Shown here in pieces: positions 8,710 to 25,322 of a DNA stretch of 64,000 nucleotides. This stretch comes from Oscillospiraceae bacterium (lineage in GTDB: Bacteria; Bacillota; Clostridia; UBA1381): assembly GCA_022509025.1 (NCBI GenBank), contig JAFLUB010000004.1, positions 1 through 64,000 on the forward strand. Reading direction: 5' to 3'. The notes beneath the pieces were generated by a model. It worked only from the letters and a program-made list of their open reading frames with translations, searched no databases and was not told the origin of the DNA. The translations under genes were made by a program, and so were the position numbers. Within the stretch, counting starts at the first letter, position 1. Each line of letters starts with the position of its first letter.

Positions 8710-8738
8710 TTGCAATCAAACCAAAAAAGTAGTAAAAT
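8710..8738 (+). promoter_or_regulatory. Promoter of the EAL-domain gene
   Basis: TTGCAA (8710-8715), a 17-base spacer, then TAAAAT (8733-8738), about 30 bases before the TTG start at 8770. Confidence 0.55.
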
Positions 8739-8769
8739 ATATATGACTATATTTTTAGGAGCGAGAGAA

Positions 8770-11688
8770 TTGAGTAAACGGATTTTCAGGATTACACAGC
8801 GTGCCGTAGCGCTGTTTATTATTCTTTTGATTTTATTTTGCACTAATGTTGTTACCATTGCTGATACAAATCGGACTGTCAGAGTGGCTTTTTTTCCTAT
8901 GGAAGGATATCATATTGTAACATCAAACGGTAATTTCGGCGGTATGGATGTTGAATACATGAACGCTCTCGCTCAGTATGCGGGCTGGGATGTTGAGTTT
9001 GTTTCCTGTGTAAGCTGGGATGACGCGCTTAAAGAGTTAAGCGAAGAAAAGGTGGACTTTGTCGGAACGGCGCAGTATTCAGAAGAGCGCGCGAAGATTT
9101 ATGATTATGCAAATCTTGCAAGCGGCTATACCTACGGCGCGGTAATTGTAAACGGTTCAAGTCCGCTCGCCTATGAGGACTTTGAAGCGATGAAAACAGT
9201 GAAATTCGGTATGGTTAAGACATATATACGCCGAGGCGAATTCCTCAAATATATGGAAACAAACGGCGTAACCTCACCGCAGATTATCGAATATGACAGT
9301 ACGGCAGCTTTGCAGACAGCACTTGATAATGGAGAAATTGACGCGGCTGTTCATACGTTTATGGAAATCAAAGACGGACAGCGTATTATAGGACGTTTTG
9401 CGCACGCTGAGTATTATTACATAACGCATAAAAACAACGAAGAGGTTTTAGCCGAGCTTGACGCCGCTATCGCTGACCTCAAGCTGAATCAGCCGGAGCT
9501 TGAAAATCATCTGACGAATAAATATTATAATGATAAGCTCGGAAAGGAAATCGTATTTACTATAGACGAAAAAGAGTATCTTAAAAGCCGTGATTATATT
9601 TCAGTCGGATACATGAACGACCATTATCCGTTCTCGTACATTGAGAATGGCGAATATAAGGGTCTTGCAAGGTCATGGTTTGACAGAGTTCAGGAGATAG
9701 CCGGTATAGAGATAAGATATGAAAAGATTGACAACGCGGAGGAAGGGAAACAGAAACTCGAATCAGGCGAGATTGATGTGCTGAGCTATTATACAACCGG
9801 CAACGATTCGGATGATACTATTGAGAAATCAGATTATGCCGCTGTTTCGCTTGTAGTTGTCGCGAGAAGCAGTAAGAAATCCGAGGAGATAGAAAAATAC
9901 GCTCTCACTCCGGGACTTAAAAATGTTCTTGAAACATTCACGACTATCGACACTAAATCCATATTGGAGTTTGAGGATGAAAACGAAAGCGTGGACGCGC
10001 TCAGGAACGGAAGTGTGGACGCTGTAATCTGCAACAGCTATCTCGCAAGCGATATAGTAAACGACAATCCTGAGGCGTTCGATTTGCGCAGCGTCTTAAA
10101 CGGTGAGGAAGATATCGGCATTGCGACAAGCGTCGCGGCGGACAAGCGGCTCAGGGAGGTGCTTGAAAAAACGATAGACCCTGTTGATAACCGCGCAATA
10201 AACGAGTACATGGTGCAGAACCCGCGGGATCAGCAATTTACTTTTATAAACTGGATTACAAAGCATAAGTTTCAGATAGGCTGCATAATAATGCTGATTA
10301 TAATCGCGGTTCTTATGATTGTTCTCAAAATGCTCAGAGACAGCCGAAGAATACAGCGGCTTATGTACAAGGACGCCGAGCTTGATGTGTGGAATTTAAA
10401 CTACTTTGTTTATTGGACACAGAAGCATCTCGAGCCGCAGTCCAACTATGCTGTTATATATCTTAACACCTCGCAGTTCAGAATATACGGAATGCTGTAC
10501 GGCTGGAAGGCGAGCAACAAGATTTTAAGCTCTATATCGGACGTTTTGGAGCAGGAGCTGAACGCTAAACACGAGGTTTATGCGCGTAATAAAACGGCAG
10601 CGGGCGAGCTTTTTGCGCGTACTCAGAGCGACCGTTTTGTACTGATGCTTGAATATACGGAGAAAAATGAGCTTGAAACAAGACTTCACCATATTATAGA
10701 TAATCTTGAAAACAAGCTTCGTGAAATAACAGGCATACGTATAACGATTAACATGGGTGTTTACTATCTTGATGATATCAGGGAGAATACGCGTGACGCT
10801 ATACAGAAGGCAAATCAGGCTCTTGACTGTATGTGTGACAAGAACAGCAACATAAGCGGAATCCAGTATTACAACGAGGAACTCAGCAAGCAGATTAAAT
10901 CCCAGCACAACTTTGAGGAAAAAATGTCGAAAGCCGACATTCAGAAGGACTTTATAGTTTTATATCAGGCGAAGGTAGATATAGAAACGCTCAAGGTTGT
11001 CGGCGCGGAGGCGCTGGTTCGGTACAAGAATCACAAGGACCCGGATGATTTCGTCTCGCCAGGCTTCTTTATCCCGTATTACGAATCGACGGGAAAGGTT
11101 AAGGAGCTCGACTTCTTTGTATTTGAAACCGTCTGCAAAATGCTCAGTGAGCGTATACGCGAGGGTAAGGAGGTTGTCCCCGTATCGTGTAACTTCTCTC
11201 GCCGCCATTTCACGGATAGAAGCTTTATCGAGAAGCTGACCGGCATGTTTGACAAATATAACATCCCGCGTGATTTGATTGAAATAGAGATAACCGAAAC
11301 GGTTATTATGGATGAATTACAGCAGGAGAGTGCTTTTGCCATAATCAGAGAGCTTCACGAGTTGGGAATCCATATGAGTATTGACGATTTCGGCTCCGGC
11401 TACTCGTCGCTCGGCGTATTCGAGCAAATCCCGGCGTCTGTTTTAAAGCTTGACAGATCGTTCCTGATTAACCATATGGACAGAGACCGTCAGGCAGAGA
11501 TTATGAAACAGATTGTAAAGCTTGCGCATAATCTTGACGCGCGCGTTGTCTGCGAGGGCGTTGAAACGGATGACGATGTTGAGCTTATGAGAGAAATCGG
11601 AGCAAAAATAGCGCAGGGCTTCAAATACGCAAGACCCGAACCGCTCGAAGCATTTATTGATAAGCTTGAAAATGGAATAAAAGAATAA
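8770..11688 (+). CDS. Membrane c-di-GMP phosphodiesterase: two SBP domains, degenerate GGDEF, EAL
   Basis: 972 residues. I chose the TTG at 8770 because AGGAG lies eight bases upstream and a promoter overlaps the longer frame. Order: signal/anchor helix (10-32), two tandem family-3 solute-binding domains (about 40-260 and 270-490; VRVAFFPMEGY and ISVGYMNDHYPF start each), a membrane helix (501-523), a GGDEF domain whose signature is replaced by QSDRF and so is probably inactive as a cyclase, and an EAL domain with intact EALVR (from about 747), DDFGSGYSSL and CEGVE motifs. The likely role is degradation of c-di-GMP in response to an extracellular amino acid or similar ligand, lowering adhesion or matrix output. 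A strong terminator follows. Confidence 0.9.
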   Translation: MSKRIFRITQRAVALFIILLILFCTNVVTIADTNRTVRVAFFPMEGYHIVTSNGNFGGMDVEYMNALAQYAGWDVEFVSCVSWDDALKELSEEKVDFVGTAQYSEERAKIYDYANLASGYTYGAVIVNGSSPLAYEDFEAMKTVKFGMVKTYIRRGEFLKYMETNGVTSPQIIEYDSTAALQTALDNGEIDAAVHTFMEIKDGQRIIGRFAHAEYYYITHKNNEEVLAELDAAIADLKLNQPELENHLTNKYYNDKLGKEIVFTIDEKEYLKSRDYISVGYMNDHYPFSYIENGEYKGLARSWFDRVQEIAGIEIRYEKIDNAEEGKQKLESGEIDVLSYYTTGNDSDDTIEKSDYAAVSLVVVARSSKKSEEIEKYALTPGLKNVLETFTTIDTKSILEFEDENESVDALRNGSVDAVICNSYLASDIVNDNPEAFDLRSVLNGEEDIGIATSVAADKRLREVLEKTIDPVDNRAINEYMVQNPRDQQFTFINWITKHKFQIGCIIMLIIIAVLMIVLKMLRDSRRIQRLMYKDAELDVWNLNYFVYWTQKHLEPQSNYAVIYLNTSQFRIYGMLYGWKASNKILSSISDVLEQELNAKHEVYARNKTAAGELFARTQSDRFVLMLEYTEKNELETRLHHIIDNLENKLREITGIRITINMGVYYLDDIRENTRDAIQKANQALDCMCDKNSNISGIQYYNEELSKQIKSQHNFEEKMSKADIQKDFIVLYQAKVDIETLKVVGAEALVRYKNHKDPDDFVSPGFFIPYYESTGKVKELDFFVFETVCKMLSERIREGKEVVPVSCNFSRRHFTDRSFIEKLTGMFDKYNIPRDLIEIEITETVIMDELQQESAFAIIRELHELGIHMSIDDFGSGYSSLGVFEQIPASVLKLDRSFLINHMDRDRQAEIMKQIVKLAHNLDARVVCEGVETDDDVELMREIGAKIAQGFKYARPEPLEAFIDKLENGIKE

Positions 11689-11954: not shown

Positions 11955-11983
11955 TTGACAAATTATACTTTTTATGGTATTGT
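11955..11983 (+). promoter_or_regulatory. Promoter of the cobalamin-responsive operon
   Basis: TTGACA (11955-11960), a 17-base spacer, TATTGT (11978-11983), about 25 bases before the riboswitch aptamer. Confidence 0.7.
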
Positions 11984-12009
11984 TTTTTGGAAAATTAAAT
12001 ATTCACACA

Positions 12010-12215
12010 GTGTGTCGGCTATGTCGTTCAGGCTTAGCCGGTGAAAAGGGAATCGGGTGAGAATCCCGGGCGGTACTGCCGCCGTATGCACCGAATGTTT
12101 TTATGCTCACAGGCGAAAGCCGGTCATTGGGAAACTGAGAAGGCGAGTGTAAAAATGCGAAGCGCTGCGCTTCATATGGTGTGAGCCGGAAGACCTGCAT
12201 TGATGTTATTCCGTA
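12010..12215 (+). promoter_or_regulatory. Cobalamin (B12) riboswitch
   Basis: Conserved core elements appear in the correct order: GCCGGTGAAAAGGGAATCGG, GTGAGAATCCCGGGCGGTAC, TGCCGCCGT, and the B12 box AGCCGGAAGACCTGC near 12184. A variable arm contains a 6-bp palindrome with a three-base loop (GAAGCG-CTG-CGCTTC, 12155-12169). In this riboswitch class, adenosyl- or other cobalamins bind and normally switch the downstream genes off. The aptamer is followed at 12307 by a terminator, which suggests transcriptional control of the giant SLH protein, the lipoprotein and the ECF S component. Confidence 0.93.
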
Positions 12216-12306
12216 CTTGCCTTGGGGCATAGGAATAATGGTTTTGTCTGCGTAAAAAGAATCTTTTTTGCGCGGATAATTTGTGGTGTGTTCGCAGGAA
12301 AAGACA

Positions 12307-12347
12307 GCTGCGGCGATTTTTAGTATAAAAATTGCCGTGGCTTTTTT
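12307..12347 (+). terminator. Regulated terminator of the B12 riboswitch
   Basis: A 16-bp stem (12307-12322 with 12326-12341) is completely paired if G-U pairs are allowed, with a three-base loop and then six T. It lies between the aptamer and the first gene, so it is the likely expression platform. Confidence 0.85.
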
Positions 12348-12427
12348 GTTTGCCCGGCGACGGGAGGTGTATGAAATAAAATAAAAATTTCAACTGCAAA
12401 CATTACACAATGAAAGGAATGGAAAAC

Positions 12428-15400
12428 ATGAACAGAAAAATTTGTAAAAGGAATTTATTATGCCTGCTGTTGTCTTTGGTTATGGTAGTCAGTCTGTTTC
12501 CGGCGGGAGTATTGGCTGACGGTCTGGCGGGCGAGGGAACGGAGGAAAGTCCGTATCTGATAAAGACCGCAGACGACCTTAAATCGTTTCGGGATATAGT
12601 TAACACGGCGGATTCAAGCTCAGCATGCGCCGTACTGACTGATGATATTGATTTAAAGAATGAGGAATGGATGCCGATTAATTCTCTTTCGGGATATCCG
12701 ACCACAGCATACGCGGGAGTTTTTGACGGCGATTTCCATACCATTACGGGCTTGTCCGTAAATGCGTCTGCGACAAATCAAGGCTTATTTGCGGTTATTA
12801 ACGGCGCGGAAATCAAAAATTTGAACGTTGAAGGCAGTGTTTATTCGGACAAAGCGTATGTAGGCGGAATTGTCGGCAAGGTTCAGCAGGGCAAGCTTAC
12901 AAACTGCAGCTTTTCGGGAACTGTAGAAACAGGCGCGACAAGTAGTTCCGCCTATGCGGGCGGTATAACCGGCTATGCGGGAAATACGGCGGCGCAAACC
13001 GCGGATATAAGCGGCTGTGTGAGCAATGCGGCAGTAAAGGGCGGCGTTGCGGGCGGTATAACCGGCTATGCCAAATACACAACAATTACCAACTGCTATA
13101 ACACGGGCGCAATCAGCGGCACAAGCCGTTCCGGTGGTATAGCGGGACAGTTACAGAACAATTGTATTGTTGAAAATTGCTATAATATCGGCGAGATAAG
13201 CGGAAGTGATACTGCTTCAGATATCTGTGACTTTTTATACAGCTCGGCAAAGCTTACGAATTGCTGGGGTAAAACACAGTTGTCCGGTGCCGGCGCAGGA
13301 ACAACCGAAGGCGGCGGAATAATTACTGCGTCTGATGCATTACTCGAAAGTCTTGGCAGTGCGTTCACCGCAGATGATAATGATATAAACGAAGGCTATC
13401 CTGTTCTTTTATGGCAGAAAAATAACGCTCCTGTACCGAAGGACCCGAAAATCTCTATAACCGGCGGCGCGGCGCTGTACATGACAAACAGCGGCGCAAT
13501 GCCACAGACCACTTTAAGTGTAAATTATACCGATATGGACGCTGTTCCGATAGAGTGGGCAACAGATAATGGCGACGTTATCACAATCGAACCGCCCGCT
13601 GAGCCGGACGAAAATAACACCAAGCTTATCGTTAAGGCTAAAAATCCGGGCACGGCTGTGGTCACAGCTTCAACGGAGGACGGTGCATATACAGCGGAGC
13701 AGGAAATAAAGGTAATGCCGTTTGTAACAACGGTTGAAATAGGCGGTCAGGCTGTTGTCGGTCAGACCGTTGCGGCAAAGGTGAATGTGCTTGGCGGTAG
13801 AGAGTATGACTATGAAAATTATCCGGAGCTCAACTATCAGTGGAAATATCTTACCGCTGATGACTACGATGAGGGAAACACCGGCGCTTCATCATATAAG
13901 AATATTGAAGGCGCGATAAACCGTGAGTTTACGATTCCGAATGAATTAAAGGGTGCGTATCTTTCATTTTCGGTTTGGTATAACGGGGAGGATAGAACGC
14001 CGTCAAGACCTGTGAAAATTGTTTCCGGGGATTATCCTGTGCTGCAAGCCGACAGGGACGCGCTTACGATTGATACGTCGGATATTAAAGAAAACAAGAC
14101 TATCGTATTGCCGCGGGAGAGCGAACACGGTTTTGAAATTATCTGGTCAAGCAGTCATACGGATATAATTAACACGATAACCGGAGAAGTTACGCTTTCC
14201 GCAGAGGACACAACAGATGTAACACTCACAGCAACATTGTCAACCAATGATAATGAGACGCTTTCAAAGAACTTTGTTATCAAAGTGTATTCCGTAAAAG
14301 CTATTGATGAAGAAAAATCAGTATTAGCGGCGGATAAGGATGCGCTCATGATTGATACATCGGATATAGAAGAAAACACAACTATTGAATTACCCGTGAG
14401 CGGTGAGCATTCGCAAATCACATGGGTAAGCAGCGACAGCGATATAATAAACCCGGAAACAGGAGTTGTCACATTGCCGCAAAGCGGCGGTATTGTATCT
14501 GTTACGCTTACCGCAATGCTTACATACAAAGAACATACAGACACAAAGGAATTTACAATACAGGTATATTCGCTCGGAAAAATTGAGCAGGAAAAGAGCG
14601 ATTTAGAATATGACCGGGCAACGCTTACAATAGATACGACCGATATAAAAGCAAGTAAAGTTATTGAATTGCCGGTAGTCGGCGCAAAGGGTTCGCAAAT
14701 CACATGGTCAAGCAGTAACAGTGATGTAATCAATTCCGAAACCGGAGTTGTCACGCTTCCCAAAACGGATATCGTGACTGTTACCCTTACCGCGACGATT
14801 ACCCTTAACGGACGCACTGCTGAACGTATCTTTGAAATAAATGTGTACTCTCAAAAGGCGCTTGATGATGAAGCGCGCGATAAAAAGCTTGCACAGCTTC
14901 AGGATATTGCCGCTAAACTCGGTGATTATTATAAAATGTACCCTGTATTCGGCACAGATACAAACGTACTTGATATTTTAGAGGAGGATTTTGCAGGAAA
15001 AGACGTAAACTGCGATGAATTTGACACAGCGATAAAGAACGTGGAAGAAATATACGGCGGCGCGGGAATTGACAGTGACGGAAATATTACATATTTCTAC
15101 GTTGATCCGAACGGTACTCCCGCTATCAGAATGGGAAGCTATACCGTTACGTTTACGATTAGCATTGACGATGCGGAGTATGACTTTGACGTTCCTGTTA
15201 TCATCTATTGGGATACGGATAAAGTGAAAGCGGTTATGAAGAACGAAATACTTGATAATGTTACGGACGCAAGTATTCTGGATGAAAATTCATCGCTTGA
15301 CAATGTCACAGGCAATCTGTCGCTTCCCAAGGTTGTTGACGATAAGAAATGGACGCTTATTTCATGGTCGTCCTCAGATGAAAATGTGCTCGCAATCAGT

Positions 15401-17503
15401 GCGGAAAGTCAGGGTACTGCCGACACTCTGTTTAATCCCTATACCGGTGTGGTAAAACGCGGCGCGGAGGATAAGACAGTAACGCTGACGGCGACATTTA
15501 CATTTATGCTCACAAACGATATAACGGGAAATGAACAGCCGGTTACGATGAATAAAGTGTTTGATGTTACCGTTAAAGCCATTGGCAGTGAACAAATCGA
15601 GGCTATAGAGCGTGAGCTTAACGCAAAGCTTGACTCGGGCTTTGAAAAGACGGGACTTACTGACAGCGTAACAGGGGAAAAGCTTTTCTTTGACGGCGAA
15701 AAATATACTGCACATAATGATATTCAGCTACCGACCACGCGTGATTTCGGTATTGACGGGAAATATTATCCTGTAACTCTTTCAAGCAGTAATGATGCGG
15801 TTATTAAAACTCCTGATGTAAATAACGCCGCAAGAGCCCAAGTATATCGTCCGGCTGTAGGTAAGGACAGTGCAGATGTTAAGCTCATTGTCACAATAAC
15901 GGACACAAATTCAAATATTTCGGTATCAAGAACCTTTGACATAGTTGTTCCTGCAATTACAAGCGATGAGGTTGAGAGTGAAAAAACTCTTATGGAAAAG
16001 GTAAAATCAGCGTACTTCGATGGTATCAAAGGCGAAAATGCTGAGCCTCAGAATATAAGCACCAATCTTAACCCGTTTATGGAGGTTTATGAAGAAAACG
16101 GTACGCTTGTCTGGGTGCGTGACAGTAAGAATAAGGTAAATCACGGTATTGTGCCGGTAGCTTTAGAGGGCTGGGAGGAGCTTGAAGCGTGGAGGCTGTT
16201 CAGGTCAAGCAACCCCGCCGCCATAACGCATGAAAACCTGCTTGTTACAATGCAGAAGAATGCAAAGGCGGTAACGGTGACGAGCGCGCTGTCAAGTGAA
16301 ACTCTCGGCAAATACGGAAAGCTGTATATTGATGATCCAAAAGCTTACGCCGATTATGCGTCTCTTGCTGAATTGTATTATCAGGAGGTGTCACAGCCTC
16401 TGGTCGTAAGAGGAAAAACAACGGAGACAGATAATTTCCGTCCTATGGCAGTTGAGGAAACGATAACGGTATACTTCCGTTTGCAAAGCAGCGACAGCAC
16501 ATTGATTGAAACAACGGCATACAAAAATCTTGACGAGACACTGACGGTATTTGATATATTTAAGAAAGCGCTCAGTGAGAACGGCTATACATATGAAAAC
16601 CGCGGCAGCTATGTATATTCTATAACGACACCTGAGGGAACAACCTTTGCCGAGCTTGACGAGGGCGCAAATTCGGGCTGGATGTATAAGGTCAACGGTG
16701 AAGCTCCTGAGGTTAACATGGGCGGATGCGGTCTCAGCAACGGCGATGAGATTTTGGTATACTTTACTAAGGACTATATGGAGGGAAAATATCCACAGGT
16801 GACAGACGAGCCGTCAAGCGGAAATACTCATACTTCTAAAGCATCATCGAAGAATAACGCAAACGAGGAAAATAAGATAAACGAAGAAGCAAACAAACCG
16901 GAAAAAACAGAATCGCCCGCACCGGAAAAAACGGGCAGCACAGAAAAAGACGCCGCCGTATCATACAAAGACACATCAGGTCATTGGGCGGAGAGTGCAA
17001 TTCAATATGTAACCGATTTGGGAATTATGCAGGGCATAGGAAATGACGAATTTGCTCCCGACAGTAGTATGACGCGCGCAATGTTTGTGACGATGCTGTA
17101 TCGTCTGGAGAATGAGCCGGAAACGGCATTGTCAGAGTTCATTGATATCGAAAGCGGCAGCTGGTATGAAAAGGCTGTTTCCTGGGCTGATAAAAACGGC
17201 ATCGTAGCGGGTATATCCGATACGGAATTTGCACCCGGCCTTAATATCAACCGTGAGCAGATAGCGGCTATTATGTATCGTTATGCAAAGTTCAAGGGTT
17301 ATGCGCCGGACGGAGCGGCTAATGTCAGCTATTCGGATGAAATGAGCATTTCCGGTTATGCAAAGGAAGCCGTATCATGGGCGGAAGCAAATTCAATCAT
17401 GGTCGGTATGGGCGACGGCTCTTTTGCTCCAAAAAGAATTGCAACGCGGGCGGAAAGCGCAGTTGTGTTTATGAGAATGATTGACTTTATTGATATTGTG
17501 TGA
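12428..17503 (+). CDS. Giant SLH-anchored surface protein with DUF4430 domain, B12-regulated
   Basis: 1691 residues from the ATG at 12428 (AAAGGA nine bases upstream; two in-frame ATGs lie further 5'). A signal peptide (about 1-30, ends SLFPAGVLA) is followed by GLUG-type repeats (about 85-280; YVGGIVGKV, GGITGYA), an Ig-like section, three repeated 'atrophied Ig' modules (about 535-815; each with LTIDTSDIKEN and ITW.SS.SD.I) and further Ig-like modules to about 1190. A DUF4430/transcobalamin C-terminal-like domain follows (about 1342-1452; SGWMYKVNGEAP is its hallmark), then a charged Thr/Glu/Lys linker and three SLH repeats (about 1512-1691). SLH domains bind cell-wall polymers, so the protein sits on the surface. 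Its position behind a B12 riboswitch suggests binding of cobalamin or B12-carrying material; that role is inferred. Confidence 0.9.
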   Translation: MNRKICKRNLLCLLLSLVMVVSLFPAGVLADGLAGEGTEESPYLIKTADDLKSFRDIVNTADSSSACAVLTDDIDLKNEEWMPINSLSGYPTTAYAGVFDGDFHTITGLSVNASATNQGLFAVINGAEIKNLNVEGSVYSDKAYVGGIVGKVQQGKLTNCSFSGTVETGATSSSAYAGGITGYAGNTAAQTADISGCVSNAAVKGGVAGGITGYAKYTTITNCYNTGAISGTSRSGGIAGQLQNNCIVENCYNIGEISGSDTASDICDFLYSSAKLTNCWGKTQLSGAGAGTTEGGGIITASDALLESLGSAFTADDNDINEGYPVLLWQKNNAPVPKDPKISITGGAALYMTNSGAMPQTTLSVNYTDMDAVPIEWATDNGDVITIEPPAEPDENNTKLIVKAKNPGTAVVTASTEDGAYTAEQEIKVMPFVTTVEIGGQAVVGQTVAAKVNVLGGREYDYENYPELNYQWKYLTADDYDEGNTGASSYKNIEGAINREFTIPNELKGAYLSFSVWYNGEDRTPSRPVKIVSGDYPVLQADRDALTIDTSDIKENKTIVLPRESEHGFEIIWSSSHTDIINTITGEVTLSAEDTTDVTLTATLSTNDNETLSKNFVIKVYSVKAIDEEKSVLAADKDALMIDTSDIEENTTIELPVSGEHSQITWVSSDSDIINPETGVVTLPQSGGIVSVTLTAMLTYKEHTDTKEFTIQVYSLGKIEQEKSDLEYDRATLTIDTTDIKASKVIELPVVGAKGSQITWSSSNSDVINSETGVVTLPKTDIVTVTLTATITLNGRTAERIFEINVYSQKALDDEARDKKLAQLQDIAAKLGDYYKMYPVFGTDTNVLDILEEDFAGKDVNCDEFDTAIKNVEEIYGGAGIDSDGNITYFYVDPNGTPAIRMGSYTVTFTISIDDAEYDFDVPVIIYWDTDKVKAVMKNEILDNVTDASILDENSSLDNVTGNLSLPKVVDDKKWTLISWSSSDENVLAISAESQGTADTLFNPYTGVVKRGAEDKTVTLTATFTFMLTNDITGNEQPVTMNKVFDVTVKAIGSEQIEAIERELNAKLDSGFEKTGLTDSVTGEKLFFDGEKYTAHNDIQLPTTRDFGIDGKYYPVTLSSSNDAVIKTPDVNNAARAQVYRPAVGKDSADVKLIVTITDTNSNISVSRTFDIVVPAITSDEVESEKTLMEKVKSAYFDGIKGENAEPQNISTNLNPFMEVYEENGTLVWVRDSKNKVNHGIVPVALEGWEELEAWRLFRSSNPAAITHENLLVTMQKNAKAVTVTSALSSETLGKYGKLYIDDPKAYADYASLAELYYQEVSQPLVVRGKTTETDNFRPMAVEETITVYFRLQSSDSTLIETTAYKNLDETLTVFDIFKKALSENGYTYENRGSYVYSITTPEGTTFAELDEGANSGWMYKVNGEAPEVNMGGCGLSNGDEILVYFTKDYMEGKYPQVTDEPSSGNTHTSKASSKNNANEENKINEEANKPEKTESPAPEKTGSTEKDAAVSYKDTSGHWAESAIQYVTDLGIMQGIGNDEFAPDSSMTRAMFVTMLYRLENEPETALSEFIDIESGSWYEKAVSWADKNGIVAGISDTEFAPGLNINREQIAAIMYRYAKFKGYAPDGAANVSYSDEMSISGYAKEAVSWAEANSIMVGMGDGSFAPKRIATRAESAVVFMRMIDFIDIV

Positions 17504-17542
17504 TAATATTGGGAATATAAAATAAGGGGGACTGACTGATAT

Positions 17543-17989
17543 ATGAAAACGCTATTTGAAAAAAATAAACGAATTATCCTTTGTATGACGCTCACCGTGA
17601 TAATGACACTGTTTTTGTCGGGTTGTAACGGCGGCAAAAGCAATGGCACACCTTCCACTCCGGCAGTAAACGCACGGACGGAAAGCACTTTAATGGGAGA
17701 GGGTAGTACACAATTCGATTTTACTGTAGTGGACAAGGAAGGAAATGAAACACCGTTTGAAATTCACACAGATAAGGAAACTGTCGGAGAGGCTTTATCT
17801 GAGCTTGGGTTGATTGACGGAGAAGAAGGTCAATACGGTCTTTATGTAAAAACAGTAAACGGTATCACTGCCGATTATGATAAGGACGGTGTTTACTGGG
17901 CATTTTACGTTAATGATGAATATGCGTCCGCCGGTATTGATTCCACGGCTATAAAAGAGGGAGACAGCTACTCCCTGAGGATTGAGTAA
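17543..17989 (+). CDS. DUF4430 lipoprotein, putative cobalamin-binding
   Basis: 148 residues. A lipoprotein signal peptide has the lipobox LSGC at about 24-27, followed by a short linker and one DUF4430 domain (about 55-148; features DGVYWAFYVNDEYAS and GDSYSLRIE). DUF4430 is related to the C-terminal domain of eukaryotic transcobalamin and intrinsic factor, which clamps one face of B12. It lies 39 bases after the SLH protein and 2 bases before the ECF S component, all behind the B12 riboswitch, so it is a good candidate for the membrane-tethered B12 receptor of that transporter. An SD-like AAGGGGG precedes the start. Confidence 0.85.
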   Translation: MKTLFEKNKRIILCMTLTVIMTLFLSGCNGGKSNGTPSTPAVNARTESTLMGEGSTQFDFTVVDKEGNETPFEIHTDKETVGEALSELGLIDGEEGQYGLYVKTVNGITADYDKDGVYWAFYVNDEYASAGIDSTAIKEGDSYSLRIE

Positions 17990-17991
17990 AT

Positions 17992-18510
17992 ATGAAGCTT
18001 ACAACAAAAGAGATTGCTGTATTCGGAGTGCTTGGAGCTATTATGTATGTTTCAAAGTTTATTATGGAAATCATACCTAATGTTCATCTGCTCGGCGTAT
18101 TCACAATCGCATTCACGGTTGTATACAGAAAAAAAGCATTATATCCAATCTATATTTTTGTTGTTTTAACCGGTATTTTCTGTGGTTTTGCAGCGTGGTG
18201 GATTCCATATTTATATTTGTGGACGGTTCTTTGGGGTGCAGTAATGCTTCTTCCCAAGAAAATGCCTAAAAAAGTGCAGCCTGTCATTTATATGACAGTG
18301 TGCGCGCTGCATGGCTTTTTGTACGGGACCCTATACGCTCCGACACAGGCGATACTGTACGGACTTAGCTTTAAAGGAATGATAGCATGGATTATCGCGG
18401 GACTGCCATGGGACTGTATTCATGGTATAAGCAATTTCTTCTGCGGAATGTTGATTATGCCGGTTGTTTTAACATTAAGACTTGTAGAGGGGAATACAAA
18501 TAAAAGCTGA
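17992..18510 (+). CDS. ECF transporter S component, probably cobalamin-specific
   Basis: 172 residues with about six membrane helices. It opens with KLTTKEIAVFGVLGAIMYVS, whose Ala-rich first helix is the usual docking surface for the EcfT module. The specificity-determining loops contain AAWWIPYLYLW and GLPWDCIHGISNF. No EcfA/EcfA'/EcfT genes lie nearby, so it would use a shared energising module (group II ECF). Cobalamin specificity (CbrT-like) is inferred from the riboswitch and from the adjacent DUF4430 lipoprotein; the protein alone would only support 'ECF S component'. It is the last gene of the operon; a terminator follows. Confidence 0.82.
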   Translation: MKLTTKEIAVFGVLGAIMYVSKFIMEIIPNVHLLGVFTIAFTVVYRKKALYPIYIFVVLTGIFCGFAAWWIPYLYLWTVLWGAVMLLPKKMPKKVQPVIYMTVCALHGFLYGTLYAPTQAILYGLSFKGMIAWIIAGLPWDCIHGISNFFCGMLIMPVVLTLRLVEGNTNKS

Positions 18511-18563
18511 TATTAATACACAATACAAGCAATTCAAATCGTAAACATTATATATTACACACT

Positions 18564-18603
18564 AAAAGGGTGTCAGGGGTGTTCGTTCCTCAGACACCCT
18601 TTT
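18564..18603 (+). terminator. Terminator of the B12 operon
   Basis: An 11-bp perfect stem (AAAAGGGTGTC, 18564-18574, with its complement ending at 18603) has an A-rich 5' flank and a TTTT 3' end. Confidence 0.75.
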
Positions 18604-18719: not shown

Positions 18720-19844
18720 ATGAAAAAAGGACGTATCAGTTTTTTGCTTGTTTTAACAATGCTGTTTTCGCTTGTATCTGCTCATGCTGAGCGCGATATC
18801 AGTATTTATGTGGACAATGCACAGCTAAAATGTGATGTTCCCGCGTTTATTGACAACGGCAGAACCATGGTGCCTATGCGCAACATCTTTGAAAGTCTGG
18901 GCGCTCAGGTATCCTGGGATGGTGAAACAAAAACAATTACAGCCCAAAAGCCTGATGTTAAAATCACTTTGCAGATAGATTCCACTGTATTGACAAAAAA
19001 CGGAGCATCTGAAGAGTTAGATACAGTTCCGACTATTGTCAGTGATACAACATTCGTTCCTGTCAGAGCCGTTTCTCAGGCTTTAGGGGCAAATGTGAAA
19101 TGGAATAATGAAGCTTATGCGGTTTATATTACGTCTGATTCAACAAACACAGGCGGGAATGATGAACCAAATGTATTGACGTATACTGAGGATGGCTTAA
19201 CCATTTCGGTTGATCTGTCTGAGGCAGAAGCACACAAAGAAGTTGGCGGGGATACCGAACCTGTTGTAACGATGTATGCCCCGGACGGCAGAACACTTTC
19301 CGTTCCTCAGTCAGAGGTGGAAGCGTACAAGGGAGTCGGCTGGTATACCGAACCTGTTGTCATGATGTACGCTGCGGACGGCAGAACTCTTTATGTTGTT
19401 CAGTCAGAGGTAGAGGCATATAAAGGAGTTGGCTGGTACACCGAACCTGTTGTAACAATGTATGCTCCGGACGGCAGAACCCTCCCTGTTATTCGGTCAG
19501 AGGTAGAGGCATATAAAGGAGTTGGCTGGTACACCGAACCTGTTGTCATGATGTATGCCGCAGACGGCAGAACCACATATGCGCCTAAATCAGAGGTAGA
19601 AGCATATAAGCGTGTCGGTTGGTACACAGAGCCATACACACCTCCCAAGAGCAGTTCAGGCTCAGGCGGCTCAGGCTCAGCATCATACGGCGGCAGTACC
19701 CATGTGGGTTCTACCGTATATATCACACCTACAGGAGTACGCTATCATTACAGCGCATCCTGCGCAGGCAAGAATGCCAGAGCCACAACACTTTCCTCAG
19801 CTCAGGCAAGCGGATACACACCATGTAAAAAATGTGCGAGATAA
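18720..19844 (+). CDS. Secreted stalk-domain protein with 31-residue tandem repeats and a Cys C-terminal module
   Basis: 374 residues. After the signal peptide (1-23) comes a copper amine oxidase N-terminal-like stalk domain (about 25-140; NGRTMVPMRNIFESLGAQV and TTFVPVRAVSQALGANVKW are its two hallmark halves). About four and a half 31-residue repeats follow (about 176-305; core DGRTL, SEVEAYKGVGWYTEP), then a Gly/Ser linker. The last 40 residues (ITPTGVRYHYSASCAG ... ASGYTPCKKCAR) match the small Cys-rich module often attached to secreted nucleases and wall proteins, with a YHxxxC...CxxC pattern suited to zinc. Function is unknown; a surface structural or binding role is likely. It lies 24 bases before the CE8-PL1 gene and is probably co-transcribed. 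Confidence 0.82.
   Translation: MKKGRISFLLVLTMLFSLVSAHAERDISIYVDNAQLKCDVPAFIDNGRTMVPMRNIFESLGAQVSWDGETKTITAQKPDVKITLQIDSTVLTKNGASEELDTVPTIVSDTTFVPVRAVSQALGANVKWNNEAYAVYITSDSTNTGGNDEPNVLTYTEDGLTISVDLSEAEAHKEVGGDTEPVVTMYAPDGRTLSVPQSEVEAYKGVGWYTEPVVMMYAADGRTLYVVQSEVEAYKGVGWYTEPVVTMYAPDGRTLPVIRSEVEAYKGVGWYTEPVVMMYAADGRTTYAPKSEVEAYKRVGWYTEPYTPPKSSSGSGGSGSASYGGSTHVGSTVYITPTGVRYHYSASCAGKNARATTLSSAQASGYTPCKKCAR
19245..19634 (+). repeat. 93-bp in-frame tandem repeats
   Basis: Repeat starts are exactly 93 bp apart at 19245, 19338, 19431, 19524 and 19617 (the last partial). Copies 1 and 3 encode TMYAPDGRT and copies 2 and 4 encode MMYAADGRT, so the array probably grew by duplication of a two-unit 186-bp block. 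Confidence 0.9.
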
Positions 19845-19868: not shown

Positions 19869-22800
19869 ATGAAACAAAAACTATTTGCGTTATTAACAGC
19901 GGTATGTATGGCATTCACATTCGTACCGGCAGCTATGCTGACAGTGTCGGCGGAGGGCGATCCCGCTATCGTCCGGGCATACACTGAGAACGGAAACACC
20001 GTAGCAGAGCTTGAGAATACGGCTGGCGGCGTGCTTATTGCGGCAAAGTACATAAACGGTAAGCTTGAGAGCGTCAAGTATAAGGATGCCACGAACGACA
20101 CGGTTATAATTGAAGGCATAGAAGCGAGCAGGGTATTCCTCTGGGATTCGCTTGAAGGAATGAAGCCTTTGTGTTCCGCATTCCCGATTGAGGCAGATAT
20201 AGATCCGGGTGAAACACAGATACCGGGTGAGACACAGACACCGGGTGAGACACAAAAACCGGACGAGACACAGACACCGGGTGAGACACAAAAACCGGAC
20301 GAGACACAAAAACCGGGCGAAACACAAACTCCGGTTGAGACACAGACACCTATACCTACACCTACAGCAACGCCTAAACCAAAGCCGACATTTGACCCGA
20401 GCCTTACGGCGGTAACGGGTGATATTGTTGTTCACAATGTGAAAAACGACGGTGAGTATCTTGATTTAAGCAAGGTTTCACTGACCTTTACGGCGAATGA
20501 TGATTCGGCATTAACATATACTGCAATAATAGATGGAAATAGTTACGACATAGGTCTTACTCCGGGTCATACATATACAATTACGGCATCAGACAATGAC
20601 GGCTACGCCCTATCGGAATTATCCGGCAGCTATACGCTTTCTGCTAACGGCACGGCTTCGTCCAAAAATATCCTGTTTACGGAAACAGTATCTGATATTC
20701 CGTTCAGCGCAACTGTCAAGGTAGGCGCGAAGAAGGAGTATGCGACCATAAGCGACGCTATCACGGCAATTAAGGCTATGAAAAACCGACCTGCGGGAGA
20801 AAACGGACGAGTAACTGTGGAAATTGACCAGGGCACATATCGTGAGCAGGTAATAGTTGACGCAAATTATGTTACGATGAAGGCGGCGGATGAAAATAAA
20901 AAGCCGACAATAACCTTCTATTACGGTATCGGTTACATCTATTATTCAGCGGGCGATAAAGGCTACTACAGCGAGGATTACGCGGTTGCGAAAATACGCA
21001 AGAGTAAGGTCGACAGATGGGGATGCGTTGTAAGAGTAACCGGCATGAACTTCATCGCGGAAAATATTATATTTGAAAATTCCTTTAACTGTAATATAGT
21101 ACCTGAAGAATTGGCAGACGGAGTCGAAGCGGCAGGAGAAGGTGTATACAGCGATGTCAAGAATAAGCCTGACAGAACGGTTTCAGGCTATGACCCGAGA
21201 ACAAAAGATTCCGCTACAGAAAGAGCGGCGGCATTTGCCGGTGACGGAAGAAATTATGAACTGTATCAGTGCGAGTTTATCTCCTCGCAGGATACTTTGT
21301 ACACAGGCTATAACGGTTACTTCAAAAACTGTTATATTGAGGGCGGCACGGACTACATCTTCGGCGGAAATTCCGTAGTGTTTGATGGATGTACGCTCGC
21401 ATGGCACGGCTATTCGGATAAGGCAACAGGCGGTTATATCACAGCCTGCAAGTCCGGCGGCGTTCCTACGGCGGGAGTGCCGGATCTTAACGCAAACGGA
21501 TATTTGTTAAGCAACTGCACGGTTGCAAATTCCAAGTATTATAAGGATAATAAGTTCGCGGCAGGCAGCTGGGGACGAAACTGGGGCGGCGCAAACTGTC
21601 AGGTTGTGTTTGACGATGTTACAATCGCTAACGGTGTTGAAGTCCCCGGGGCATGGAGCAAAATGGGCGGTGAGCTTAACACGTCAATACTTTATGTAAA
21701 TAACGTTCACCGCGCCGACGGAACCGTAATCGCAAGCACAAGCAACAGCTTTAATCCGAACGGTACAATGGCTGCTAAAGACTATACTGTAATGCATATG
21801 ACAGATTACTTCGGTCCGGACTGGATCCCGGTACACTATACAGGCGGTATTAAAGAAAAGACAGAGTATACGACAACATGGTATTTTGGTCACTCAAACG
21901 GCGCTCCGGATTATAACTATGAGGGCAGCGGCCAGACAGTGGACATAAAAGGAACGACAGATTCAGAAACAGAACAAATCCTGCACGTTGACGCAAGCAA
22001 TGGAAAATTTAATAACATAAATCGTGATGACGATTTATGTCAGGTAAATAACGGAACCACATTCACCATTCCGGTTGTAAACGGCTCGGTGATTACCTTT
22101 GACGGATATTACGAGACAGGAACTCTGACAATAAACGGAAAGGCGTTCAAAGACACTGAATCATATACATATGAGGGTGAAGCAGGCACGGTTGTAGCAA
22201 CAGCAAACGGCGTGGGATGGATGTCCTACATCAGAGTGGTATCACCGATTACCCCTGCCGAACCGGCAGTTCCTGCCGAAACTCTGTATAAGCTGGATTT
22301 AAGCGACACTCCGACAGGTAATATCGCTGACGGCGGTGATGTTGCGGGACTGACAGCATCGCTTAAAACCGGTGTGGAAGGCGATATATCTGTAGCCGAT
22401 ACCGATTACGGCAAGGCTATTGAGATAAAGGATACGGCAGCCAATCAAAATTCTCTGATATGGACAGCTGATAGTCCAATATCGGAAGGCAGAGTTTCTG
22501 CGACAGTTAAATTTGTATCTAAAAATAACAGTAAAAATGCGGATATCGGATTTAACAAGATTAACGGCGGAAACTTGTACTTCCAGACAAAAGTAGGCGG
22601 TAAAAAGACAAAATTCTATATTGACAAAGGAGTTAAGGATGAGCAATTAACATTATCCAAGGATATAGAATATACTCTCGTAACAGATATTAATTATGAT
22701 AAAAATACTGCTGACATGACGCTGTATAATGCAAGCGGCGCGGTAGTAACATCGGCGTCTATGTCTGATGTTGAGAATCACGGAATCACCAGTCTTGCGT

Positions 22801-25322
22801 CCGAATGGGCGGTTAAGAGCATAACGATTGCTCTGACTGCCGGCGGAAATACCAGCGGCACGGAAGACGATAATATTGACCTGCTGATAACAGATTACAA
22901 GGTGGAATACTGGTCCTCGGGCGGAGCGGAGGAGCCTAAGGCAACAGACGAACCAAAGGCAACGGAAGAACCCGCTCCAACAGATGATCCTAATGAGCTT
23001 CGCGCGTTCCCCGAAGCCGAGGGCGGCGGTAAGTATACCAAAGGCGCAAGAGGCGCAGACAATATAGAAGTGTATCACGTAACAAGTCTTGCAGACGACG
23101 GCACAGGCTCACTTCGTGACGCTGTTTCCAAAGGCGGACGTATTATTGTCTTTGACGTTGGTGGCATAATAGAACTTAAAAAGCAGTTAAATATAAAAGA
23201 CGTAGATAACCTTACAATACTCGGTCAGACTGCGCCCGGTGACGGCATCACAATAACCGGCAGCGATGTGCTGCTCAGCAACGCCAACAATATCATTATG
23301 CGATATCTCAGGATACGTCCGACAGATTCGCAGGGCGGCGAGCCGGACGGTCTTGGCGGACGCTGGGTACACGATATTGTCCTTGACCACTGCTCTGTAT
23401 CATGGGGTGTTGACGAGCTTCTGACGCTGTACGCAGGTTCTCTTGAGGATAAACTTAACGATCCGATAAAATATGCGAACAGAGACCCATCAAAGAATAT
23501 CACAGTACAGAACTGTATAAGCGCGGAGAGCCTGAGAATGTCAAACCACTTCAAAGGCGCGCACGGTTACGGCGGTATTATAGGCGCGACAAACGGCACA
23601 TATCACCACAACCTGTTCGCGCATCACGACAGCCGTAATCCTCGTGTGGACAGAAACATACAAGGAACGGATATGGTTAACAATGTCATATACGACTGGG
23701 GCAATAACAGCTGCTACGGCGCTGAACCGTATTCATATAACAGTAAAATCGCAACTCCGGAATACGTTTCCAGAATTAATATAAGAAATAACTACTATAA
23801 ATACGGTCCGTCCACAAAAGAAAGTATACGCTCCAAAATTTTTGAAGCGACAAATGATGACAAGAACCTCAAATCGGATATATACATAAACGGAAACTAT
23901 GTGTACGGCAATAACGCGGCGACCTCAAATAATACGTCGGACGAAAAGTATGTCAAAAACAGAGATAAGATGAATCTGCTTACATCGCCTATAGACATGG
24001 GTGTGTATGAAATTCCTACACAGACGGCTGAAGCGGCATTTAATGATGTTATGGCGAATGTCGGCGCGACGCTTCCGAAGCGCGACAGCATTGACGCGAG
24101 AATTGTTGCTGACGTTCAGAACGGAACAGGCAGAATTATAAACAGTATTGAAGAAGTCGGAGGATTTGAGGGAATAACAGAATCCAATCTCACATTTGAA
24201 ATCCCGTCCGAGTGGAAAACTGCAAACAACATGGGCAGTGCGAAGGAAACAGATATAGTTGCAGACGGCAAGTGGGCAGGATATACGTGGATAGAAGCGT
24301 ATGTAAACGACTGGACACAGGGGCAGAGCGCACCGACAAATCCCGACATCACGGTTACAGCGCCTGCCATTGCAAATACGGCAAGAGACTCGAAGTATGG
24401 TTCGGACGGTTTCTGGCAGGTAGCAAAGGAAGGTGAGAATGTAAAGTACACCGCCAAAGCAACGCCTAAGTCAGGAACAAGCATTACAAAGATAGAGCTT
24501 TATGACGGAACGACGCTTATTAAAACTGTGGAAGCTGCAGACATCAACGAAAATATCACTCTTGAAGCGGGCACGCATTATCTGACGTGTAAGGCATACA
24601 ACAACAAAGGCGAAATAACAACCTCGCCGACATCAATCGTGTATGTGATAAAGGACGCTAATCCTAACAGCTCTTTTACGCTCAAGGAAATAGGTAAAAC
24701 AGCGTTTCCGAATAATAGCGGTATATGGGAAAAGGACGGCATAACGTACATCGGCGGCAGCGGACTTATAGGCGGCACGTCCGACGCGTTCACCTACTGG
24801 TCGAACCCCGTAAATGGCAATTTCACATTCTCCGTGAAGGTTGAGAGCATTCCGAAATATGAAAACGGCGCTTATTGCGGCATTATGTTCCGTGAAAGTC
24901 TTGACGCGGATTCGAGAATGGTAATGCTTTCGGACGGCTGGAGAAAATACGGCGAAAATATCATGGCTCCGAGACGTACTGCGAAGGGTGGTACACTTAC
25001 GGACGGCTGGCTCAAGGACGCAAGCGGAAAGGAAGTTAAGAATGAGGGCAGCTATGATACGTCAGATGCAAGCAAAAATCTTGCGTTGCCGTCATATTTG
25101 AAAGTTGAACGTAAAGACGATAAGTTAATACTTTCTGTTTCAAATGATGGTGATAACTGGACAAATAACATACGTCAGCCGCTCGAAATAGATATAAGCG
25201 ATTGGAGCCAAGACGCGTATATCGGACTTGCAATAGACAGTATACACGGCTCATCCTCCGAAGCGGCGCCGATGCTTCCGTGGTACTCGATAGGCTCGTT
25301 CTCAGATATAAAACTGAACTGA
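19869..25322 (+). CDS. Secreted bifunctional pectin methylesterase (CE8) - pectate lyase (PL1)
   Basis: 1817 residues. Order: signal peptide (1-29), a short beta domain shared with the PL11 enzymes (about 30-110), a GETQ/KPDETQ Pro-Thr linker (about 112-175), a small Ig-like domain, and a CE8 pectin methylesterase (about 280-660; QDTLY at 474-478 and GGTDYIFG around Asp495 carry the catalytic residues). A beta-sandwich, probably carbohydrate-binding, follows (about 800-1015), then a linker, then a PL1 lyase domain (about 1042-1480; LDHCSVSWGVDE near 1172 and RNPR at 1256-1259). An Ig-like domain and a C-terminal DUF1349/LamG-like beta-sandwich (about 1600-1817) end the protein. The esterase would remove methyl groups from homogalacturonan so the lyase in the same chain can cut it. 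There is no SLH or sortase motif, so surface retention is unclear. Confidence 0.92.
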   Translation: MKQKLFALLTAVCMAFTFVPAAMLTVSAEGDPAIVRAYTENGNTVAELENTAGGVLIAAKYINGKLESVKYKDATNDTVIIEGIEASRVFLWDSLEGMKPLCSAFPIEADIDPGETQIPGETQTPGETQKPDETQTPGETQKPDETQKPGETQTPVETQTPIPTPTATPKPKPTFDPSLTAVTGDIVVHNVKNDGEYLDLSKVSLTFTANDDSALTYTAIIDGNSYDIGLTPGHTYTITASDNDGYALSELSGSYTLSANGTASSKNILFTETVSDIPFSATVKVGAKKEYATISDAITAIKAMKNRPAGENGRVTVEIDQGTYREQVIVDANYVTMKAADENKKPTITFYYGIGYIYYSAGDKGYYSEDYAVAKIRKSKVDRWGCVVRVTGMNFIAENIIFENSFNCNIVPEELADGVEAAGEGVYSDVKNKPDRTVSGYDPRTKDSATERAAAFAGDGRNYELYQCEFISSQDTLYTGYNGYFKNCYIEGGTDYIFGGNSVVFDGCTLAWHGYSDKATGGYITACKSGGVPTAGVPDLNANGYLLSNCTVANSKYYKDNKFAAGSWGRNWGGANCQVVFDDVTIANGVEVPGAWSKMGGELNTSILYVNNVHRADGTVIASTSNSFNPNGTMAAKDYTVMHMTDYFGPDWIPVHYTGGIKEKTEYTTTWYFGHSNGAPDYNYEGSGQTVDIKGTTDSETEQILHVDASNGKFNNINRDDDLCQVNNGTTFTIPVVNGSVITFDGYYETGTLTINGKAFKDTESYTYEGEAGTVVATANGVGWMSYIRVVSPITPAEPAVPAETLYKLDLSDTPTGNIADGGDVAGLTASLKTGVEGDISVADTDYGKAIEIKDTAANQNSLIWTADSPISEGRVSATVKFVSKNNSKNADIGFNKINGGNLYFQTKVGGKKTKFYIDKGVKDEQLTLSKDIEYTLVTDINYDKNTADMTLYNASGAVVTSASMSDVENHGITSLASEWAVKSITIALTAGGNTSGTEDDNIDLLITDYKVEYWSSGGAEEPKATDEPKATEEPAPTDDPNELRAFPEAEGGGKYTKGARGADNIEVYHVTSLADDGTGSLRDAVSKGGRIIVFDVGGIIELKKQLNIKDVDNLTILGQTAPGDGITITGSDVLLSNANNIIMRYLRIRPTDSQGGEPDGLGGRWVHDIVLDHCSVSWGVDELLTLYAGSLEDKLNDPIKYANRDPSKNITVQNCISAESLRMSNHFKGAHGYGGIIGATNGTYHHNLFAHHDSRNPRVDRNIQGTDMVNNVIYDWGNNSCYGAEPYSYNSKIATPEYVSRINIRNNYYKYGPSTKESIRSKIFEATNDDKNLKSDIYINGNYVYGNNAATSNNTSDEKYVKNRDKMNLLTSPIDMGVYEIPTQTAEAAFNDVMANVGATLPKRDSIDARIVADVQNGTGRIINSIEEVGGFEGITESNLTFEIPSEWKTANNMGSAKETDIVADGKWAGYTWIEAYVNDWTQGQSAPTNPDITVTAPAIANTARDSKYGSDGFWQVAKEGENVKYTAKATPKSGTSITKIELYDGTTLIKTVEAADINENITLEAGTHYLTCKAYNNKGEITTSPTSIVYVIKDANPNSSFTLKEIGKTAFPNNSGIWEKDGITYIGGSGLIGGTSDAFTYWSNPVNGNFTFSVKVESIPKYENGAYCGIMFRESLDADSRMVMLSDGWRKYGENIMAPRRTAKGGTLTDGWLKDASGKEVKNEGSYDTSDASKNLALPSYLKVERKDDKLILSVSNDGDNWTNNIRQPLEIDISDWSQDAYIGLAIDSIHGSSSEAAPMLPWYSIGSFSDIKLN
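20205..20350 (+). repeat. 18-bp tandem repeat coding a GETQ-type linker
   Basis: Repeated units encode (P/K)(G/D)ETQ(T/K)P, forming the flexible Pro/Thr linker between the N-terminal module and the esterase. Units alternate TPGETQ and KPDETQ, a sign of recent slippage or unequal exchange. Confidence 0.85.

Follow-up and report, generated by a model that had tools for sequence, protein, structure and literature searches.

The window analysed here is a stretch of 64,000 nucleotides from a gut Oscillospiraceae bacterium (assembly GCA_022509025.1, contig JAFLUB010000004.1, positions 1 to 64,000). Its segment 11955-18603 carries, on the forward strand, a cobalamin riboswitch followed by three genes encoding an SLH-anchored wall protein with a DUF4430 domain, a DUF4430 lipoprotein and a predicted S component of an energy-coupling factor (ECF) transporter. 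Comparison with related genomes indicates that this operon is probably a corrinoid (vitamin B12) acquisition unit, with wall and membrane DUF4430 proteins as binders and a CbrT-like S component as importer. The comparison confirmed what the first-pass annotation had observed in this segment, and its B12-uptake reading emerged as the best-supported hypothesis. A larger finding concerns the relatives, which appear to carry riboswitch-controlled, wall-anchored transcobalamin-like systems.

Linkage of riboswitch and DUF4430 was determined in 61 related genomes of the same order, a DUF4430 gene being counted when it lay within 13 kb downstream of a riboswitch on the same strand. In this sample 27 of 52 cobalamin riboswitches were followed by a DUF4430 gene, against 0.27 expected, and the linkage was present in 26 of the 33 genomes having both. 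These counts, together with the conserved cassettes described below, rule out a chance assembly of the operon parts.

Organization of the operon and the fold of DUF4430

A search of the 2.49 Mb assembly (87.6% complete) revealed a single match to RF00174, located ahead of the operon at 11993..12216 (+) and covering the full-length model, positions 1-189 (Infernal 64.7 bits, E=1e-13; gathering cut-off 31.5 bits). A sigma-70-type promoter-like site, TTGACA-N17-TATTGT with TG, precedes it at 11955..11983 (+; consensus scan, 10/12 matches). Downstream of the aptamer, scanning and minimum free energy folding identified a 16-pair hairpin at 12244..12279 (+) and, just upstream of gene 1, an intrinsic terminator-like hairpin of 17 pairs with a T run at 12306..12342 (+); the folding of the leader interval 12217-12420 was 5.6 standard deviations below that of shuffled sequences (z -5.6). 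The three open reading frames (ORFs) lie on the same strand, separated by 39 bp (ORF1-ORF2) and 2 bp (ORF2-ORF3). A further hairpin, AAAAGGGTGTC...GACACCCTTTT, stands at the end of the operon (18564..18603, +); it was read directly in the sequence, and its loop exceeds the length allowed by the hairpin scan. The parts present agree with the control of three genes by a cobalamin riboswitch and terminator, as first proposed, and the leader anatomy suggests that the operon would be switched off by the terminator when intracellular cobalamin is sufficient.

ORF1 read from its first ATG spans 12410-17503 (1697 aa). An AAAGGA at 12413-12418 is suitably spaced for the ATG at 12428, which is the most likely start and yields the 1691-aa protein previously described (12428..17503, +). 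Its hydrophobic N-terminus points to a signal peptide, and Pfam identified three Glug, five aBig_2, one DUF4430 (E=3e-12) and three SLH domains, the latter, for cell-wall anchoring, at 16961..17455 (+; PF00395, 102 bits, three stretches). The transcobalamin C-terminal-like DUF4430 domain lies at 16544..16771 (+; PF14478, 51.8 bits), corresponding to residues 1373-1448 in the 1691-aa numbering; its presence in the earlier assigned region of about 1342-1452 was verified by the profile, but that span was too wide. In the wall protein DUF4430 was assigned by Pfam family only, the fold match having been made for the lipoprotein. SLH domains are abundant in this assembly, with 81 matches, which indicates an SLH-rich cell surface.

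The second gene (17543..17989, +) encodes the 148-aa lipoprotein that had been recognized in the first reading, with lipobox LSGC and Cys28 (signal MTLFLSGC, residues 21-28, read from the sequence) and a PF14478 match of E=2e-11. Its DUF4430 domain is at 17777..17968 (+; 45.6 bits). A PF14478 search of the assembly gave two matches, the wall protein and the lipoprotein, and the Pfam scan of these two proteins gave 47.1 and 44.4 bits (curated cut-off 23.8 bits).

The AlphaFold2 model of the lipoprotein, built from 38 aligned homologues, had a predicted local distance difference test (pLDDT) score of about 95 over residues 51-148. When this model was compared with the PDB by Foldseek, 19 matches were obtained at E<=0.001. 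Two of them, including the top match, are 3u7z (RUMGNA_00854 of Ruminococcus gnavus; 33% identity to the lipoprotein domain, TM to target 0.91), the closest solved structure, which was deposited as a 'putative metal binding protein'. All the remaining 17 are transcobalamin, haptocorrin or intrinsic factor (E 4.5e-6 to 1.2e-4, probability 1.00), and the next match is unrelated (E=0.015). According to this model, DUF4430 shares its fold with the beta domain of transcobalamin, in line with the relationship to the transcobalamin C-terminal domain claimed at the outset. No sequence link between DUF4430 and solved transcobalamins was obtained by phmmer (both domains) or by profile search (lipoprotein only), so the relationship is one of fold alone. 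Isolated human TC-beta was crystallised with cyanocobalamin and with cobinamide, both bound at the same site (PMC5599065), and hence a lone DUF4430 domain could in principle hold a corrinoid.

The third gene (17992..18510, +) encodes a hydrophobic membrane protein of 172 aa with no Pfam or NCBIfam family. Its sole PDB match was a weak one to 6fnp_A (E=0.0025 as single sequence, E=0.0022 as a 44-row profile). That entry is the ECF-CbrT of Lactobacillus delbrueckii, and the matched membrane protein of 182 residues fits the size of an S component. The protein is also recognizably related to the S part of the fusion protein EcfA-A-S of genome G054 (E=4.9e-7), which connects the lipoprotein-S pair with the ECF cassettes described below. 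The first-pass annotation had called this gene an ECF S component; both relationships agree with that, and the only family of known substrate matched in the PDB, albeit weakly, is that of a corrinoid importer. ECF-CbrT is reported to import cobalamin and cobinamide and to bind both with high affinity (PMC5997447).

Analysis of the rest of the genome revealed a housekeeping ECF module, EcfA1-EcfA2-EcfT, adjoining truA. A solitary S component depends on a shared ECF module, and the S protein of the window, like CbrT in 6fnp, is presumed to share the housekeeping one. A MetH-like protein of 802 aa is a candidate B12 user. No corrin pathway was seen in the 87.6%-complete assembly, which gave one tetrapyrrole-methylase match where the pathway would need several. 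The natural reading is that the organism would be a B12 auxotroph using the vitamin for methionine synthesis.

Riboswitch-linked cassettes in related genomes

Of the loci in the order with DUF4430 behind a riboswitch, 24 were read. The usual cassette opens with the riboswitch and an SLH-DUF4430 giant of 745-2030 aa. An alpha/alpha-toroid protein of 350-560 aa, either secreted or anchored by SLH domains, comes next, followed by a DUF4430 protein of 200-340 aa that is held in the membrane by its N-terminus; EcfT, of about 295 aa, and a fusion of EcfA, EcfA and S, of about 770-930 aa, complete the set. Pfam analyses of the scanned cassette proteins identified SLH, DUF4430, CbiQ, two ABC_tran and the ECF S families PF07155 and PF12822. 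ECF genes were visible in 11 of the 24 loci, several others being cut by contig ends. The co-occurrence of SLH-DUF4430, membrane DUF4430 and ECF genes behind cobalamin riboswitches, for which a survey of Clostridia had been suggested, was thus found in these relatives.

The toroid partner, which the first-pass annotation had overlooked, is encoded in 19 of the 24 loci and has the fold of the transcobalamin N-terminal domain. In Foldseek, terpene cyclases, transcobalamins and prenyltransferases matched one toroid model (pLDDT 92.6) about equally well (E about 1e-4), so the toroid fold alone is not decisive. The toroids were accordingly not accepted as proven transcobalamin alpha domains, the general toroid family being no more than consistent with that identity. 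More specific evidence for a transcobalamin alpha domain comes from the SLH proteins of 827-865 aa, three of which match PF01122 (Cobalamin_bind) with E values between 4e-5 and 2e-4, slightly under the curated cut-off. These three, of 832-865 aa, are located at L160:10564-13059, L179:7267-9861 and L180:2587-5097; their N-terminal 120 residues look like a DUF4430 domain (GYQVNGG...V.DGD) that has diverged too far for a Pfam match.

Toroid, DUF4430 and SLH domains occur in one polypeptide in genomes G044, G055, G049, G023, G030 and G054. Such a chain is in effect a predicted wall-anchored transcobalamin-like protein. Single chains of this type were located behind a cobalamin riboswitch at L153:957-3731 (G044), L158:2015-4957 (G055) and L155:1889-5608 (G023), the last carrying three DUF4430 copies. 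The genome of the window (G000) has a toroid of its own at L187:898-2472 (contig C6), a secreted, C-terminally membrane-anchored protein of 524 aa whose gene has no riboswitch and adjoins that of an AbrB/SpoVT-like regulator; possibly it is the partner missing from the operon.

The lipoprotein and the S component form a unit of their own elsewhere. Relatives of the S protein were searched by tblastn, 317 being found, and the pair was surveyed in the best 80 of these (70-81% identity), nearly all from Lachnospiraceae or Clostridia metagenome-assembled genomes. In nearly all 80 loci a DUF4430 lipoprotein gene ends shortly before the S gene, and Rfam placed a cobalamin riboswitch directly upstream of the pair in many of the loci scanned. 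A specific aptamer motif had 48 occurrences in the 80 loci, all of them immediately ahead of the pair, and the remainder of the 2.5 Mb, with both strands counted, contained none; Rfam detected several further riboswitches. This recurrence establishes lipoprotein plus S as a recurrent riboswitch-controlled unit, and it bears out the earlier idea of co-occurrence for the pair alone, which sits behind cobalamin riboswitches in many Lachnospiraceae. No SLH or toroid genes were found in the Lachnospiraceae pair loci; the loci with SLH genes, L020 and L027, appear to correspond to members G004 and G008 of the window's own genus.

Acquisition of the pair from Lachnospiraceae by gene transfer is plausible, judging from identities of 78-81% and from close matches in only 4 of the 61 order genomes; the S tree that bears on this point is poorly supported. 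Within the genus, DUF4430 was present in five of 16 species (G000, G004, G008, G013 and G014). G013 and G014 carry the ECF cassette, and in G004 and G008 the giant follows the riboswitch with the lipoprotein-S pair convergent beside it. Giant, lipoprotein and S in one unit were found, among the genomes examined, in the window only. Its operon is a hybrid of the wall-capture gene of the order and a lipoprotein-S pair of the kind common in Lachnospiraceae, and this hybrid may have arisen by gene transfer.

Another six species of the genus lack DUF4430 but show a strong FecCD (BtuC) match. None of the five DUF4430 species has BtuC, so that the overlap among the 16 species is zero. In five of the six, BtuC is located some 2 kb downstream of a riboswitch of the same type. 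This exchange behind one riboswitch type suggests alternative B12 importers, being the pattern expected of them. In sister species BtuFCD stands behind the riboswitch at L170-L172 (G007, G015 and G001), where the window has its DUF4430 operon; at L170, BtuF, BtuC, BtuD and CbiK were confirmed by Pfam, the lipoprotein-like CbiK following BtuFCD.

Proposed mechanism and alternative readings

Under B12 scarcity the riboswitch, judging from the leader anatomy, would let transcription read past the terminator. The SLH protein would then sit in the wall and the lipoprotein on the membrane's outer surface, both holding corrinoid by DUF4430, as their fold suggests. The solitary S component would take the corrinoid, with import powered by the housekeeping EcfA1-EcfA2-EcfT, as the likeness to CbrT and the presence of the module suggest, and the imported corrinoid would serve MetH. 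We infer the corrinoid binding by each part, the substrate of the S component and its partnership with the shared module. Hand-over from wall protein to lipoprotein to S is the simplest order given the anchoring positions; parallel capture by wall protein and lipoprotein is equally compatible with the data.

Several points weigh against this corrinoid acquisition reading. Binding, transport and regulation are all deduced from sequence and predicted structure. The match of S to CbrT is weak (E about 0.002), the identity of S coming from its sequence alone, and absences are provisional because the assembly is 87.6% complete. The sub-picomolar affinity of transcobalamin needs both its domains, and no toroid was found in the window operon by Pfam on its three genes or by locus comparison. 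Co-transcription is not universal, since G004 and G008 carry the wall gene on one strand and the pair on the other. For the split between BtuC and DUF4430 the chance of no overlap is about 0.06 with shared ancestry ignored, a merely suggestive count. Finally, relatives have solitary DUF4430 lipoproteins whose surroundings contain neither a cobalamin riboswitch nor an S gene, and the control genome of Lactococcus lactis has DUF4430 and zero RF00174 matches; the domain may therefore serve other ligands. The solitary lipoproteins, of about 130-230 aa, are at L190-L194, L189 and L198. The notion that DUF4430 always means B12 was discarded on their account. The domain by itself is no proof of B12, and the assignment draws on riboswitch, fold, S component and linkage combined.

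The alternative that survives best, though we regard it as unlikely, is that lipoprotein and S alone import B12, the giant being a B12-regulated surface or adhesion protein that hands no B12 on; its role might be to store corrinoid or to attach to some protein of the host or of a microbe. It would account for the Lachnospiraceae pair, which stands alone with no SLH or toroid gene, for the separate, convergent units in G004 and G008, and for the composition of the giant, most of which is Ig-like and Glug as in structural surface proteins. It does not account for the position of the giant, which in most of the order's loci follows the riboswitch immediately, usually with a membrane DUF4430 next and often with ECF genes, nor for the full transcobalamin domain set, toroid plus DUF4430, held by the giant in the six genomes with single chains.

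A second alternative, to which we give slightly less credence still, is that the substrate is a related compound under B12 control (cobinamide, another cobamide, alpha-ribazole or a lower-ligand base) or cobalt. Cobalamin riboswitches control genes of cobalt and lower-ligand salvage too, and CbiK follows the BtuFCD locus of a sister species. Binding of cobinamide is also reported for CbrT (PMC5997447) and for TC-beta (PMC5599065). However, the DUF4430 fold match is specific to whole-corrinoid binders, the related S component of known substrate is a corrinoid importer, and no corrin pathway that could use cobalt was seen in the 87.6%-complete assembly; cobinamide or other cobamides would still fall within the corrinoid reading. 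A third alternative is that ECF transporters use DUF4430 as a general-purpose capture domain, here with some other ligand, the B12 riboswitch reflecting indirect regulation. It agrees with the DUF4430 genes that have no cobalamin riboswitch and with the L. lactis control, but is very improbable in view of the close association with riboswitches in two distinct gene arrangements, the BtuFCD exchange behind the same riboswitch and the fold match with animal B12 carriers.

For the order as a whole, we favour on balance the view that these Clostridia have an undescribed class of surface B12 system, in which wall and membrane 'bacterial transcobalamins' (toroid and DUF4430, either distributed among several proteins or united in a single chain with an SLH anchor) would catch corrinoids and pass them to a dedicated ECF transporter (EcfT, EcfA-A-S) under one cobalamin riboswitch. 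The window would be a hybrid feeding a CbrT-like S component, and animal B12 carriers may descend from such proteins or share an origin with them.

Comparison with known systems and neighbouring genes

In transcobalamin, intrinsic factor and haptocorrin the C-terminal beta fold corresponds to DUF4430 and the N-terminal fold to the toroid of the relatives, whereas the window has beta-like domains only, on putative corrinoid-binding proteins of a bacterium, anchored in wall and membrane. In the Isd heme relay of Gram-positive bacteria, wall-anchored binders pass heme to a membrane lipoprotein and then to an importer; the logic is the same, but Isd uses NEAT domains and sortase anchors where the window has DUF4430 and SLH. 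BtuFCD consists of unrelated proteins and was not found in the assembly of the window; in sister species it occupies the position of the DUF4430 system, downstream of a riboswitch of the same type.

The BtuG of Bacteroides is a surface protein that catches B12 ahead of the transporter BtuB (PMC6143338). As a functional comparison, the proposed analogy of the operon to BtuG/BtuB holds, a surface catch ahead of the transporter being proposed for the window as well. Homology does not: neither the BtuG lipoprotein nor the TonB-dependent BtuB is among the operon domains, no fold or gene is common to the two, and BtuG/BtuB acts at an outer membrane while the system of the window would act at the wall and cytoplasmic membrane of a single-membrane cell. 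CbrT has been placed in an nrdJ-cbrS-cbrT-pduO cluster, with no DUF4430 capture or wall protein mentioned in the excerpted text of that report (PMC5997447).

DUF4430 has been named for a fish transcobalamin-like protein (PMC4350170). No bacterial B12 role of the domain was found in titles or abstracts of the open-access papers that mention it, and no description of a wall or membrane transcobalamin-like B12 capture system was found in that literature, subscription journals being outside the scope. A 2019 survey regarded the identification of B12 transporters in many gut genomes as an open problem (PMC6593275), and the operon and its relatives offer a testable answer for many Clostridia and Lachnospiraceae. 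If the corrinoid acquisition reading is true, this would be, to our knowledge, the first relay of B12 from wall to membrane in bacteria with a single membrane. It would give a function to DUF4430 and to structure 3u7z, a candidate corrinoid binder by the present comparison, and would tie the domains of animal transcobalamins to an uptake system with which bacteria compete for the same gut vitamin.

The genes adjoining the operon in the window were also inspected. Just upstream, 8710-11688 encodes a 992-aa protein with two SBP_bac_3 domains, GGDEF and EAL, a nutrient-sensing cyclic di-GMP protein. Downstream, 18720-19844 encodes a Cu_amine_oxidN1 protein in which a unit of about 30 residues (YKGVGWYTEPVV.MYA.DGRT) recurs in four near-identical copies, followed at 19869-25322 by a secreted protein of 1817 aa that, as judged from its sequence, looks like a pectinesterase fused to a pectate lyase.

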